A stretch of DNA of 64,000 bases, taken from NCBI GenBank assembly GCA_018267875.1, contig JAFDXP010000067.1, positions 1-64,000 of the forward strand, read 5' to 3'. A program made the translations under genes and the position numbers. Below are positions 669 through 16,137 of this stretch, piece after piece. This DNA is from Bacteroidota bacterium (GTDB lineage: Bacteria > Bacteroidota > Bacteroidia > Chitinophagales > Chitinophagaceae). How positions within the stretch are numbered: the first letter of the stretch is position 1; the number at the start of each line of letters is the position of its first letter. The notes below the pieces were generated by a model. The model saw nothing but the letters and a program-made list of their open reading frames with translations. It searched no databases and was not told the DNA's origin.

Positions 669-739
669 TCCGTACCAGCACGTATATAGAAATACCATTT
701 TATAGGTATTTAAAGGGCACAAATTTAAAATTAATTTTG
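669..739 (+). promoter_or_regulatory. Candidate promoter with two operator-like dyads upstream of the SUMF1/repeat-protein pair
   Basis: A TAATTTTG -7 element at 732-739 lies 19 nt after TTTA (709-712), close to the Bacteroidota TTTG/TAnnTTTG pattern. An inverted repeat AATACC-N8-GGTATT (691-710) overlaps the -33 position. A second near-palindrome, CGTACCAGCACG, lies at 671-682. The same elements recur at identical spacing at 14411-14481. The -7 element ends 20 nt before the ATG at 760. The region lies between divergent rpsU and the 760 gene, so an effect on rpsU is also possible. Confidence 0.65.
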
Positions 740-759
740 CATTAATAAAATCCACTTTT

Positions 760-2166
760 ATGAAGAAGTTATTATCTACATGTCTAATCCTTTTAGGATT
801 AAGCCCAACTCTAAGGGCAAACAACATTCAAGTAAACAATGTTACGCTGACCGGACAAAATGTTACGAGTCATTTTTCCATTGTCAATTTTGATGTAAAC
901 TGGGATCACAGTTGGCGAACTTCCAGCAACGAAGCAAACTATGACGGCGCATGGGTTTTCGTCAAGTATAGAAAAGCAAACAGTAGTTTATGGCAACATG
1001 CAACCATTAACTATGCTACGGGAGGCACTGCGGCTGCTTGTGGAAATACAGAGCCTACCGGTTCTACTTTACAAACTGCATCAGATGGAAAAGGTATATG
1101 GATATACAGAAATGCAAATGGATCAGGGAATGTAACCTTTAGTGGTGCAGGATTACGCTGGAATTATGGCACAGATGGTGTGTTAGATAATGATAGTGTT
1201 GAAGTGCGTGTATATGCCGTAGAATTGGTTTATTGTACGCAAGGGGCATTTTCTCTTGGAACAGGCGGAACTGAAAATTTTTATTTCCGTAATGGAAACA
1301 ATACAAGTCCTTTCCAAGTCACCTCAGAAAATGCCATTTCCATTGGTAGTGGATCCGGAAATCTTTATTATACAGGCGGTGCTGGCGATGGATTAGGACC
1401 CGTTCCTGCTGCCTTCCCAAAAGGATATAAAGCATTTTGGGTTATGAAACATGAGTTTAGCCAGCAACTATATGCTGATTTCTTAAACACATTAGATGCC
1501 ACCAGAGCTACAACAAGAAATATGGGAATTCCCGGCACTGCCAACAATTTCGTACCCACCAATCCTGAACGTGCATTAGGAAGCTTTAGCGGAACAGATT
1601 TTCTCGCTCTGCTTGACTGGATGGCTATGCGACCAATGACTGAATTGGAGTATGAAAAAGCTGCTCGTGGCTATAACATAGCACCGGTACCCAATGAATA
1701 CGCATGGGGTAATACCACAATTTCAAGCACCTACGCTGTTTTTAATGCAGGAACAGCCAACGAAACACCTCAACAAGGAAATGCAACTTACTATCTTTAT
1801 CCTACTTATTTGAATCGTCCTGCAAGGTGCGGCACATGGGCAAGAGATACATCTTTAACCCGTGAACATGCAGGAGCCAGTTACTATGGCGTACTGGAGC
1901 TTTCAGGAAATATTTCGGAATATTGTGTTACAGTGGGAAATACATTTGGAAGAGCCTATACCGGCTTGCATGGTGATGGAAATCTTGACAATAATGGTGA
2001 TGCCAATGTTACAAACTGGAGCGGTGGCTCTGTGGGTGTTCGTGGCGGCTCTTATGGCGATGCGTTCAATCAACTCATGGTTTCTGATCGTTATTATGCC
2101 AATGCAATTAATAACACCACGCGCTCGGCATCTTGTGGTGGACGAGGGGTTCGTACAGCAGAATAA
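760..2166 (+). CDS. Secreted SUMF1/C-type-lectin-fold protein (formylglycine-generating-enzyme-like, probably non-catalytic)
   Basis: The 468-residue protein has a signal peptide (MKKLLSTCLILLGLSPTLRA). Residues about 22-190 form an uncharacterised beta-rich region. Residues about 215-468 carry a SUMF1/FGE-sulfatase domain, recognised by 'FWVMKHEFSQQLYADFLN', 'RPMTELEYEKAARGY', 'YGVLELSGNISEYC' and 'GVRGGSYGD', ending 'GGRGVRTAE'. In true formylglycine-generating enzymes the segment after GGS(W/Y) carries two copper-binding cysteines. Here it reads GGSYGDAFNQLMVSDRYY with none, so sulfatase-activating chemistry is unlikely. No type IX sorting domain is visible at the C terminus. Residues 206-211 (GGAGDG) resemble the repeat motif of the protein encoded 23 nt downstream, suggesting a functional pair. 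Surface ligand binding is inference. Confidence 0.8.
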   Translation: MKKLLSTCLILLGLSPTLRANNIQVNNVTLTGQNVTSHFSIVNFDVNWDHSWRTSSNEANYDGAWVFVKYRKANSSLWQHATINYATGGTAAACGNTEPTGSTLQTASDGKGIWIYRNANGSGNVTFSGAGLRWNYGTDGVLDNDSVEVRVYAVELVYCTQGAFSLGTGGTENFYFRNGNNTSPFQVTSENAISIGSGSGNLYYTGGAGDGLGPVPAAFPKGYKAFWVMKHEFSQQLYADFLNTLDATRATTRNMGIPGTANNFVPTNPERALGSFSGTDFLALLDWMAMRPMTELEYEKAARGYNIAPVPNEYAWGNTTISSTYAVFNAGTANETPQQGNATYYLYPTYLNRPARCGTWARDTSLTREHAGASYYGVLELSGNISEYCVTVGNTFGRAYTGLHGDGNLDNNGDANVTNWSGGSVGVRGGSYGDAFNQLMVSDRYYANAINNTTRSASCGGRGVRTAE

Positions 2167-2189
2167 GTTCACCCTTAAACACAATTCAG

Positions 2190-3176
2190 ATGAAACGAAT
2201 ATTATTTGGGCTGATCCTTTTAACCATTGCTGGATTAGCCCGAGCTCAAAATAATCCCATTTTTTATGGTGGTCTCGCAGATGGGTTTGCAACCAAAAAT
2301 CTAAAGCAATCTATGACCAATAGTAAGGCTGGAGGCATAGCAGATGGCTGGGGAACAAACCGTTATCTTCAATCCATAGTTCATGGCAATGCGGGTGGTA
2401 TGGCTGATGGCTGGGCTACATCCAATTATCTCCCAAATATGACCAACGCCTTTGCCGGTGGATTTTCAGATGGCTGGACTTCGTCAAACTATTTGCAACC
2501 AATAACCAACAACAATGCCGGAGGTATGGCGGATGGCTGGGCTGCTCAAAGAACAATTCCTTATAAAAGTCCCACAAACAAAGGCGGAATGGGCGATGGC
2601 TGGGCGAGCAATTATCATGCTCTCTCACCATTACCAATCAATTTCTTGCGCTTTGAAGCCACGAAGGACAAACAAAGGGTTCGCATCAATTGGGAAATGG
2701 GTGACGAAGATGATGTGATGCAGTATGAAGTTCAACGAAGCGACAAGGCTGTTGTTTTTGATCCAATTGGTACGGTTGATCGAAATGATGTACTGAATAA
2801 ACACTATGTATTTTATGATGAAAAACCAATTTCGGGACACAACTATTATCGCTTACGAGTATGGAAAAAAGATGGCACTTCCGAATTTACGCCTACTCGA
2901 TTAGTGATTTTTGATAAGGTAATTGTAACAACCATGAACCTATATCCGAATCCGGCAAATGATAAGCTATTTGTTGAGCTGCCACAAGATTTTTCAGGCA
3001 CTCATGTGGTTTTCAACATTTATGATGCTGCAGGTAAAATGGTGTATCAGCAAAAAAATGTATTGCAAATAACACCAGTTGAATTAAATGTAGCTACGTT
3101 GGCAGCCGGTAATTATTTTGTGCATATCGGCACAGAAAATAATAGTGCTGTAGCCAAATTTGTCATAGTGAGATAG
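2190..3176 (+). CDS. Secreted protein with GGxxDGW repeats and type IX sorting domain
   Basis: The start is ATG 2190 (MKRILFGLILLTIAGLARAQ), a clear signal peptide; the frame stays open upstream but overlaps the previous gene. Residues 27-146 hold six copies of a 21-residue repeat starting GG-x-x-DG-(W/F). Residues about 150-250 look like a fibronectin/Ig-type beta domain ('LRFEATKDKQRVRINWEM', 'YYRLRVWKKDG'). The C-terminal 80 residues form a type A sorting domain ('LYPNPANDKLFVELPQ', 'YDAAGKMV', 'LAAGNYFVHI'), the export signal removed by PorU. It follows the SUMF1-fold gene by 23 nt and is probably co-transcribed. The repeats contain no cysteine. Their function is not known to me. Confidence 0.8.
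   Translation: MKRILFGLILLTIAGLARAQNNPIFYGGLADGFATKNLKQSMTNSKAGGIADGWGTNRYLQSIVHGNAGGMADGWATSNYLPNMTNAFAGGFSDGWTSSNYLQPITNNNAGGMADGWAAQRTIPYKSPTNKGGMGDGWASNYHALSPLPINFLRFEATKDKQRVRINWEMGDEDDVMQYEVQRSDKAVVFDPIGTVDRNDVLNKHYVFYDEKPISGHNYYRLRVWKKDGTSEFTPTRLVIFDKVIVTTMNLYPNPANDKLFVELPQDFSGTHVVFNIYDAAGKMVYQQKNVLQITPVELNVATLAAGNYFVHIGTENNSAVAKFVIVR
2268..2627 (+). repeat. Six tandem 63-bp coding repeats (GGxxDGW, 21 residues each)
   Basis: The repeat units begin with GGLADGF, GGIADGW, GGMADGW, GGFSDGW, GGMADGW and GGMGDGW, spaced exactly 21 residues apart; the last unit is shorter (about 15 residues). GG and DG are invariant, the aromatic is W in five of six units, and the last third of each unit varies. 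Confidence 0.9.
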
Positions 3177-12985: not shown

Positions 12986-13630
12986 ATGGATAAGATTCGC
13001 ATAGCTATTGCAGACGACCATCACTTACTGTTGGATGGATTAAGGGCTTTGATGCAAAAGCAAAAAGAAATTGAAATTGTTGGTCTGTATGATAATGGAC
13101 GTTCCTTGTTTGAAGCATTGCCCATTATTGTACCACAAATTGCTTTGGTAGATATCAACATGCCAGAAATGAATGGTGAAGAACTTACCAGAAAAATTAA
13201 AGAAAAATATCCCACCGTTTCCGTTATTGCCTTATCTATGTATGACGATGCAGGACACATCATGGAAATGATAGAAGCCGGCGTGTCGGGCTATATACTC
13301 AAAAACGTAACCGACAAAGAACTGCTGGAAGCAGTGCGAACCGTTGCTAATGGTAGAATGTATTTTTCCAATGAAGTAGCTGATAAAATCACAAGCATTG
13401 CGCTACAACAACAAAAGCGGACTGAAGGCGTAGAAGAATTGAAACTGACCGAACGTGAAATGGAAATATTGAAACTGATAGCCGAAGAAATGAGCAATGC
13501 CCAAATAGCAGAAACGCTTTTTATCAGCGAGCGAACGGTGGAAACACATCGAAAAAATATGTTGCGAAAAACCAATAACAAGACAATTGTCGGACTCCTG
13601 AAATATGCTTTTGAAAACCGAATCATTTAA
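12986..13630 (+). CDS. NarL/FixJ-family response regulator (LuxR-type HTH)
   Basis: The 214-residue protein has an N-terminal receiver domain: acidic pair 'ADDHHLLLDGL', phospho-acceptor Asp in 'IALVDINMPEMNGEEL', Ser/Thr in 'VIALSMYDD', Lys in 'YILKNVTDKELLEA'. The C-terminal LuxR HTH reads 'LTEREMEILKLIAEEMSNAQIAETLFISERTVETHRKNMLRK'. It is a DNA-binding regulator activated by phosphorylation. No sensor kinase is adjacent, so the partner is unknown. It lies 84 nt after mfd on the same strand with no terminator recognised between. Confidence 0.93.
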   Translation: MDKIRIAIADDHHLLLDGLRALMQKQKEIEIVGLYDNGRSLFEALPIIVPQIALVDINMPEMNGEELTRKIKEKYPTVSVIALSMYDDAGHIMEMIEAGVSGYILKNVTDKELLEAVRTVANGRMYFSNEVADKITSIALQQQKRTEGVEELKLTEREMEILKLIAEEMSNAQIAETLFISERTVETHRKNMLRKTNNKTIVGLLKYAFENRII

Positions 13631-13781: not shown

Positions 13782-14321
13782 ATGCCGGACAGCTTAGGTC
13801 CAGACAACTGGCTGGTTCACACCCGTGGCTGGTTTATGACCCTGAGTGCAAACGGAGATAGTCTAAACGAACGCATATATTATAGTGTAAATACTTGTAG
13901 TGATAAGAACCTACTCTATGATGCTCAGCAAACAGATGATGGTGGATTTATTTTGTGCGGAGAGGCAACAGAAAGGTGTAGCGGGTTTACCCCTCCTTCC
14001 CAACGTGGTTGGTTGGTCAAGGTGGATAGCAATGGCTGTCTTGGACCGGGTGAACCGCAATGCTGACCAACGGCTGTACCGGCCACTCCTAAAACATCTT
14101 CGTTTTTCACATACCCCAATCCCGTTAACGATGAATGGAACATTGCCAATCCGCAAAACTACGCACTCCGCCTCACTATCACAGACCTGACCGGAAGAAC
14201 CCTTCTTGAAACCCATTCGGCAGCTACAACCATCCGCCTGTCGCTGGCAAACCTCGCTTCCGGAATCTATCTCTACCAAATAAAAACAAACAACGGAACG
14301 ACAACACAAGGAAATATATGA
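13782..14321 (+). pseudogene. Remnant of a type IX-secreted protein, 5' truncated and split by an in-frame stop
   Basis: The frame from ATG 13782 encodes 'MPDSLGPDNWLVHTRGWF', 'AQQTDDGGFILCGEAT' and 'RGWLVKVDSNGCLGPGEPQC', typical of the beta-propeller-like end of large Bacteroidota surface proteins. It stops at TGA 14064-14066. The same frame then continues without another stop for 84 codons and encodes a type A sorting domain ('TYPNPVNDEWNIANPQN', 'ITDLTGRTLLE', 'LANLASGIYLYQIKTNNG') to TGA 14321. There is no signal peptide, and an in-frame TAA lies at 13749. So the 5' part is lost and a nonsense codon separates the domain from its sorting signal. The base composition is richer in G and C than the flanks. 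Confidence 0.8.
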
Positions 14322-14410: not shown

Positions 14411-14481
14411 TCCGTGCTGGTACGGAAAAATAAATACCACATTTGTGGTATTGTCCACCTTGTTTGAAGGCTATACTTTTG
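14411..14481 (+). promoter_or_regulatory. Second copy of the dual-dyad promoter
   Basis: CGTGCTGGTACG (14413-14424) is followed by the perfect dyad AATACCACA-TT-TGTGGTATT (14433-14452). TTG lies at 14451-14453 and TACTTTTG at 14474-14481 (20-nt spacer). Spacings between TCCGT, AATACC, GGTATT and the -7 element (22, 14 and 27 nt start to start) equal those at 669-739. Confidence 0.65.
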
Positions 14482-14487
14482 CCTTCG

Positions 14488-14612
14488 TATTTCCATTTAC
14501 CCCTGTGGGAACTCATTTTTCCTCTCGCGGGAATAAAAAATACACGTTAGAGGGTGGATTTTTAATAATCCAGGCAGCGAAACCTTTCGTCGGTTTTGCT
14601 GCTTTATTTTAT
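14488..14612 (+). ncRNA. Candidate small RNA (promoter and terminator, no reading frame)
   Basis: Transcription from the TACTTTTG element would start near 14488 and end at the intrinsic terminator at 14574-14612, giving about 125 nt. Internal pairing is possible between ATTTACCC near the 5' end and GGGTGGAT before the terminator (two G-U pairs), enclosing a CCTCT/AGAGG stem. No known RNA family was recognised; the length is short for Bacteroidota 6S RNA. It could instead be a promoter left over after gene loss. Confidence 0.4.
14574..14612 (+). terminator. Intrinsic terminator in the gene-poor stretch
   Basis: An 11-bp stem (14574-14584 with 14592-14602, one G-U pair) with a 7-nt loop is followed by TTTATTTTATA. 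It is a good terminator with no protein gene in front of it. Confidence 0.75.
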
Positions 14613-15546
14613 ATACCCAAATTTTGCAGTAGGATTATCGTATTGGTTTGTGTGTCGGGTGTTTTAATTTTTTTAAAAATGGAGTAAGAATTATTATGAA
14701 ATTCTCCCTGCGTTGGAACAGGCACACTATTACCGTTTTTGTTTCATGTTTATAAATTTCATAACCTTCTTTGGTATGGTAGCAAAAAAATGCTCTTTTG
14801 GTTTTGCGAAGGGTTGTTCTCGGTTGTTTTCGGAATGTAGAGTAAAACCAAATCCCGAAAAACCAGAAAAAGTTGTGCCATTTGCGGGTCGGCATAGCTT
14901 TTTGTAAATACATACGTTGTTTTTATTTCATGATGATATAATAGTTTATAAACTAACTACATATCTGTTCCTACTTCATGCAAATGGGGTTCACAGCTAT
15001 AACACAAATTGGAGAGTTTTGCCCATTAAAATATTTATAATCTTTAAAGCTTATTTCAATCGTAGCATAGTGTTTTTAACTTATAATGTATCTGAAAGTC
15101 AAGAAATGTATTTTTAATTTTCTTAAATATCATTTTTTTATTTTGCAAATTTAATCTTAATAATATTATTTAATTTTAATTTTATTTCATATTAAATTAT
15201 GCACATCTTTAATTATCAAACTAATATACCTTAAACATATACTATGAGCTCAAGTTAGATGGTTTTTCAAAATAAACTGGCAATGAAAAATTTGAATTTG
15301 CTCGTAGTCTTAATTTGATTTCAAAAAAGAAAGCTGTCAACGCCCAACGTCAGAGTTCATATTCTCGTCTTATTACTCTTACCGACTTTATTCAAGTCGA
15401 AAAAATAAAATTTGGCACATTGATGTTTTTTAACTTTTTTGCAGCCTTCTAATAAGAAATCACAAAACGCATCTTTTATAGCACATTTCTACCTTACTTA
15501 AACTTAGTGAATGACGTAGAACTATACGTTAAAAACAAAGTAGAAA

Positions 15547-16137
15547 ATGATGCTATCAACTCAACTCCATCTTAGTGATTCTGAATTGATCCATGCTTAT
15601 TTGCAGGGGAATTGTAAATGTTTTGAGACGCTGATGATGCGGTACAAAGACAAGGTTTACACGACCATTTTCATGCTCGTAAAAGACTCTTTTTTGGCTG
15701 AGGATATTTTTCAAGAAACCTTCATCAAAATTATTAATACCATTCGAAAAGGGAAATATGCAGAGCAAGGGAAATTTTTGCAATGGGCATTGCGGGTAGC
15801 TCATAATTTGTGCATGGATCATTTTCGACGCATTCGTAGAAATCTTCCCATTACTACTGAAGACGGAAGAGAAATATCTTTTTTGCTTCAGCTTGATAAC
15901 AACCATGCAGAAACGGATCTCGAACGTCGGCAAACACATCAAAGTGTACGCAAACTAATAGAATTGCTGCCTGATGAACAACGTGAAGTGATTGTATTAA
16001 GAATATATGCGGACTTGAGTTTTAAAGAAATTGCTAACCTGACCCAAGTAAGCATCAATACAGCTTTAGGCAGAATGCGTTATGGTCTAATCAACCTTCG
16101 CAAAATGATTACCGATCAACAATTGGTATTGCGTTAA
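15547..16137 (+). CDS. ECF-type sigma-70 family RNA polymerase sigma factor
   Basis: The 196-residue protein has sigma region 2 ('FETLMMRYKDKVYTTIFMLVKDSFLAEDIFQETFIKI', 'FLQWALRVAHNLCMDHFRR') and region 4 ('IELLPDEQREVIVLRIYADLSFKEIANLTQVSINTALGRMRYGL'). Only these two domains are present, as in ECF factors. No anti-sigma gene (FecR or zinc-finger type) is adjacent, and the downstream neighbour is on the other strand. Its regulon therefore cannot be guessed. The tight ATG-ATG start leaves one codon of uncertainty. Confidence 0.92.
   Translation: MMLSTQLHLSDSELIHAYLQGNCKCFETLMMRYKDKVYTTIFMLVKDSFLAEDIFQETFIKIINTIRKGKYAEQGKFLQWALRVAHNLCMDHFRRIRRNLPITTEDGREISFLLQLDNNHAETDLERRQTHQSVRKLIELLPDEQREVIVLRIYADLSFKEIANLTQVSINTALGRMRYGLINLRKMITDQQLVLR

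Follow-up and report, generated by a model that had tools for sequence, protein, structure and literature searches.

A composite promoter class in Bacteroidota, its probable NarL-type response regulator and a predicted small RNA

To our knowledge, response-regulator regulons in environmental Bacteroidota are hardly charted. The window analysed here, a stretch of 64 kb, contains two sites in which two dyads and a -7 element recur at identical spacing, and this raises the question of which protein reads these sites and what is expressed from them. The comparisons described below point to a regulon, likely real, of a NarL-type response regulator (RR); its operator is composite and its likely products include a small RNA. 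No description of the regulon was found in the literature searched. Its components are each of a known kind, and what is new is the way they are combined. Comparison of related sequences establishes the promoter architecture, its tie to the RR and the conservation of the RNA unit.

Two sites and their promoter class

Copy 1 consists of dyad 1 at positions 669-684 (TCCGTACCAGCACGTA, consensus TCCGTRCYRGYACGKA, centre 676.5), dyad 2 at 691-710 (AATACC-N8-GGTATT, centre 700.5, with the TACC-N8-GGTA of the NarL 7-2-7 geometry) and a -7 element at 732-739 (TAATTTTG) that follows the TAnnTTTG consensus of Bacteroidetes (PMC7366714). Copy 2, on the forward strand like copy 1, has dyad 1 at 14411-14426 (TCCGTGCTGGTACGGA, centre 14418.5), dyad 2 at 14433-14452 (AATACC-N8-GGTATT, centre 14442.5) and its -7 element at 14474-14481 (TACTTTTG). 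The original prediction had placed both sites correctly and described a gap-free alignment, which holds at an offset of 13,742, and a distance of 24 bp between the dyad centres, which is found in copy 1 and copy 2 alike. It had also argued against a recent duplication, and we agree, since the two copies resemble each other only in the boxes while intervening and flanking bases differ. Overlooked at that stage was that the dyad-1 cores of the two copies are an identical 13-mer, CCGTACCAGCACG, inverted relative to each other.

Both elements are rare. Across the genome, CCGTACCAGCACG with up to one mismatch is found only at copies 1 and 2, once per orientation, and such a core would arise by chance at any one position with a probability of about 5e-8; the 2.76-Mb genome contains AATACC-N8-GGTATT twice, both times in the window, with about 0.3 occurrences expected. 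A third, weaker composite site of the same genome (G000:C1:11745-11826, 47.8 bits) is located upstream of a 189-aa lipoprotein. Two palindromes per module and the inversion of the dyad-1 core would suit a repetitive or mobile element present in two copies (REP-like or an IS end), but this idea is ruled out by the unlike flanks and by the mere two exact genomic copies, and is further at odds with the likeness confined to the boxes, the constant distance to TAnnTTTG and the closeness of the sites to gene starts.

When 200 genomes of the family were searched with a 40-nt pattern that covered only the two dyads (up to three mismatches), a set of clear homologous sites was obtained, whereas a reversed control pattern returned almost none. 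Nearly every true site in this set continues into TAnnTTTG 20-21 nt downstream. All fetched loci pooled, there are 88 distinct composite sites; TAnnTTT, absent from the search pattern, is present 20-21 nt downstream in 66 of them and at exactly 21 nt in 60 (shuffles: 1.8). The consensus is TCCGTRCYRGYACGKA - N6 - WWTACC - N8 - GGTAT(T) - N21 - TAnnTTTG, with a constant spacing of 24 bp between the dyad centres throughout the sites from relatives. The TACC-N8-GGTA inverted repeat is exact in both window copies and strongly conserved across the 88 sites. The housekeeping promoter of Bacteroidetes has TAnnTTTG at -7 and TTTG at -33 (PMC7366714): the composite sites have the former, at constant distance, but no TTTG was found at -33 in the 88 sites, where GGTATT or TGTATT, the end of dyad 2, occupies the position. 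Genes downstream of the composite sites begin with signal-peptide or lipobox-like sequences, and their products look exported. The constant distance of the -7 element in relatives and the position of the matches upstream of such genes bear out the earlier proposal that selection acts on a promoter made up of two sites and a -7 element. Judged by these alignments, the composite sites are a promoter class.

Copy 1 precedes two genes. The first (760-2166, forward strand) encodes an exported protein that weakly resembles GldK/SUMF1 (E 4e-4) and has no Pfam match; the second (2190-3176, forward strand) encodes GGxxDGW repeats and a C-terminal sorting domain of type IX secretion. The related genome G192 has the same promoter ahead of the same gene. 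A separate set of exported proteins, starting with (I/L)RVNN...AA..GDTIYVEP and beta-helix-like by eye, was seen at loci L210, L115, L116 and L022; these proteins recur downstream of dyad-2 promoters, with or without dyad 1.

The candidate regulator

The window encodes a NarL/FixJ-type response regulator at 12986-13630 (forward strand), about 780 bp before copy 2. Its Response_reg and GerE domains are both above the Pfam cut-off (PF00072, 83.4 bits; PF00196, 63.3 bits) and the nearest solved structures are VraR and NarL. The nearest NCBIfam model is the MctR equivalog NF052445, which the protein does not reach (183.8 bits versus a curated cut-off of 300). No kinase gene adjoins it, a point against the assignment made below, and we treat it as an orphan regulator. 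Homologues outside the closest relative are 42-74% identical, and in a tree of RR homologues the family's orthologues of the window RR cluster together, with long branches that leave the deeper placing unsure. In many relatives the composite site lies a few bases past the stop codon of the RR orthologue.

Co-occurrence was assessed with an 84-nt, sequence-only covariance model built from sites in a first draw of 200 genomes; RR orthologues were called at E<=1e-55 and motif matches at E<=1e-5. Full-length matches are present in 23 of 25 genomes with the RR versus 4 of 374 without (Fisher p 4e-31), and in the second draw alone, unseen by the model, in 14 of 15 versus 3 of 184 (p 9e-18), values that overstate independence because the carriers of RR and motif belong to few genera. 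Within a genome, many sites are away from the regulator gene, which means that adjacency alone does not account for the link. A search for dyad 1 by itself found it in none of the 28 control genomes outside the genus, nor in the congener G021, which is without the regulator too. Exceptions run both ways: G223 and G101 have the RR and no motif match at E<=1e-5, while the congeners G281 and G313 (88% and 81% complete) have the motif with best RR homologues of 41% and 37% identity, and G099 has the motif with RR homologues of only 44-46%.

An unbiased scan of 84,980 species with an exact pattern yielded 45 stretches. Their records are labelled Bacteroidota, apart from two contigs of one metagenome-assembled genome labelled Azovibrio restrictus (JANLJF010000012.1, L128, and JANLJF010000103.1, L140); one of these contigs carries a Chitinophagales-like regulator and lipoprotein, and mis-binning is therefore likely. 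The fetched DNA includes an RR homologue in 25 of the 45 stretches, and in 21 of these 25, from Chitinophagales as well as Cytophagales, the motif starts 8-86 bp past the RR stop codon. Cyclobacteriaceae are included, where the RR homologue is just 42-45% identical. At four loci of that family (L124, L133, L144 and L162) two genes follow the composite site, the first of about 185 aa and PH-like by eye, the second the regulator gene, an arrangement that suggests autoregulation of the RR there.

Thus sequence alone ties an orphan NarL-type regulator to an operator, a promoter type and a set of targets, from Chitinophagales to Cytophagales. A dedicated regulator had been postulated from the two sites, and the near confinement of motif matches to genomes with one RR supports this; the same confinement, together with the position of the matches ahead of genes for apparently exported products, argues against random matches with no preference for starts. 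The further statement that this regulator was not identified in the window needs revision, as the prime candidate is the gene at 12986-13630: its product is probably the regulator of the composite sites.

We consider it quite probable that this RR controls a single regulon in which both sites serve as promoters that depend on an activator. A phosphorylated RR dimer would probably bind dyad 2 at TACC-N8-GGTA. With a transcription start expected 5-7 nt past TAnnTTTG, the centres of dyads 2 and 1 would fall near -43 and -67, respectively, so that dyad 2 would be in the place of a polymerase-contacting activator, with a second protein upstream; the RR would activate rather than repress. The RR on dyad 2 would recruit the housekeeping RNA polymerase of Bacteroidetes, which would read TAnnTTTG at a promoter with no good -33 element, while dyad 1, 24 bp upstream, may hold a second dimer or a partner and give the regulon its identity. 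Copy 1 would turn on the two-gene operon for exported proteins.

The predicted dyad-2 box has the 7-2-7 geometry of NarL-type response regulators, and promoters with boxes of this type also lie 72-77 bp downstream of two further, distinct genes for NarL-type regulators in the family. The E. coli NarL operator (for example TACCCCTAAAGGGGTA) is found at -40 to -49 in napF and at -38 to -47 in yeaR (PMC4549865); it is read by a NarL/GerE dimer, has the same TACC-N8-GGTA inverted repeat and is located approximately where dyad 2 is expected. Unlike there, a second, dissimilar dyad is present at a fixed 24 bp, the polymerase is of the Bacteroidetes type, and regulator, signal and targets are other ones. 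The window RR shares Response_reg and GerE domains with regulators of the NarL/VraR type, but differs in being an orphan with a conserved position beside a composite promoter.

A tentative alternative divides the work between two regulators: the window RR would read one dyad, most likely dyad 1, and a NarL-type paralogue common in the family would read dyad 2. Dyad-2-like promoters without this RR are frequent among other genomes of the family, and dyad 2 by itself does not indicate this RR; in these RR-less genomes they commonly lack dyad 1 (matches that cover model positions 18-83 only), and dyad 1 is the part that co-occurs with the RR. Against such a division, dyad 1 was seen apart from dyad 2 just once in genomes with the RR, within coding sequence, the 24-bp spacing is fixed in all sites, and TACC/GGTA-like half-sites are present in both dyads, so a single protein could read both. 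An ECF sigma factor gene is located at 15547-16137, about 1 kb past copy 2; no link between it and the motif was found.

The transcription unit at copy 2

The region ahead of copy 2 had been described as having no convincing gene. For proteins this is correct, but the region does contain a conserved short RNA unit with a terminator. The predicted stand-alone small RNA (14487-14612, forward strand, 5' end putative) has a fold z-score of -5.0, much of it due to the terminator. It includes a conserved core, TTAGAGGGTGGATTT (14547-14561), and ends in an intrinsic terminator (14572-14604) with a 13-pair stem and a U-rich tail. Copy 2 appears to turn on this small RNA, which would be about 115-125 nt long and end at the terminator, and not a protein. 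Rfam identified no family in the window other than a tRNA, and none in five related loci.

In most relatives (G120 and many genera) the promoter at the position of copy 2 drives a lipoprotein of about 260 aa. Pfam and NCBIfam gave nothing useful for this lipoprotein, and its AlphaFold model (pLDDT 81.7, fair) has no PDB match at E <1e-3, with TM-scores <0.3. In the other genera the core is found in the 3'UTR of the lipoprotein gene, past the stop codon and just before the terminator, and the third composite site of the window's own genome has a similar element, GAGGGTGGCTTT, past its lipoprotein gene. Window DNA at about 14533-14613 matches the DNA past the lipoprotein gene of G120 and the DNA directly past the promoter of G241. 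Four congeners (the window, G241, G281 and G313) have in common the promoter, a unit of 115-125 nt, the core and the terminator, with no ORF; their core is invariant, UUAGAGG(G/U)UGGAUUU, and the remaining transcript has diverged. The core is missing from four genomes with the RR (G139, G303, G354 and G376). Its short form GAGG(K)TGG(M)TTT, taken alone, is also present in most genomes without the RR and is too unspecific by itself. The copy-2 RNA may thus be the remnant of a lipoprotein transcription unit after loss of the ORF, and there is an apparent series of intermediates from an mRNA 3'UTR to a stand-alone small RNA gene: other genera have the lipoprotein together with the 3' element, and four species of one genus have the unit without the ORF.

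The same history would also allow a decaying promoter, with the lipoprotein gene lost and a leftover transcript without function. The lipoprotein ORF at the same spot in G120 and many genera agrees with this, as does the position of the window unit, 780 bp from the RR and behind a broken gene. However, copy 2 retains every promoter box intact (59.2 bits, the second-best score in its own genome), and three further congeners share with the window both the ORF-less unit and the 15-nt core despite an otherwise diverged transcript, which makes mere decay rather unlikely. The broken gene, a type-IX-secreted-protein sequence at 13782-14320 (forward strand) between regulator and copy 2, is missing at the corresponding spot in G120 and G241; relatives of it are present elsewhere in G192, G120 and G241. 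That the core is part of a small peptide gene is very unlikely, as the reading frame is not conserved: a GTG-started frame of 80 codons does span 14445-14687 and G281 has an ATG just ahead of the core, but in G241 a stop just upstream of the core closes the frame, and in other genera the core comes after the lipoprotein stop codon.

In many genera (loci L108-L111 and L166-L172), the lipoprotein gene is faced by a convergent gene whose sequence resembles RNase E/G; that this gene is close to a putative 3'UTR RNA could be coincidence.

Predicted pairing of the RNA core with the copy-1 genes

The RNA core of copy 2 is predicted to pair with both genes of copy 1: with AAAATCCACTTTT immediately upstream of the first gene's ATG (747-759, forward strand; 13 bp, -14.7 kcal/mol) and with AAGTTCACCCTT before the second (2165-2176, forward strand; 12 bp, -16.4 kcal/mol). 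When the start regions of 44 genes, all from the 64-kb window, were ranked as targets of the core, the two copy-1 genes came first and second; no probe out of 200 shuffled ones placed both at the top, the first target having been noticed before the formal ranking. The weaker of the two energies (-14.7 kcal/mol) is reached by about 1.4% of all 50-nt stretches. Both pairing sites are kept in G192, whose contig breaks at the position of its RNA and hides it from view. In relatives with the 3'UTR element GATTTATCC, the 5'UTR of the lipoprotein has GGATAAAT(C); of 16 lipoprotein 5'UTRs, 4 give predicted duplexes that are far stronger than in shuffled 5'UTRs and clearly significant.

The copy-2 RNA possibly tempers the genes that copy 1 turns on. 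As a tentative model, the regulon could contain an RNA feed-forward loop: one RR would turn on both the copy-1 operon and the RNA, and the core would pair with both gene starts and limit output. The RNA gene would have arisen by loss of the lipoprotein ORF between the promoter and a regulatory 3'UTR, turning a 3'UTR RNA into a stand-alone gene.

A close parallel among the known systems compared is OppZ/CarZ of Vibrio cholerae, autoregulatory small RNAs that are derived from 3'UTRs, share the operon terminator and are complementary to 5' regions of their own or related mRNAs (PMC7398697). The core in the genera related to the window's is likewise at an mRNA 3' end, with a shared terminator, and may pair with 5' regions. 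The differences are that the predicted RNA described here is from another phylum, with no role of Hfq or RNase E implied, and that the genus of the window has lost the ORF, leaving the former 3'UTR under its own promoter.
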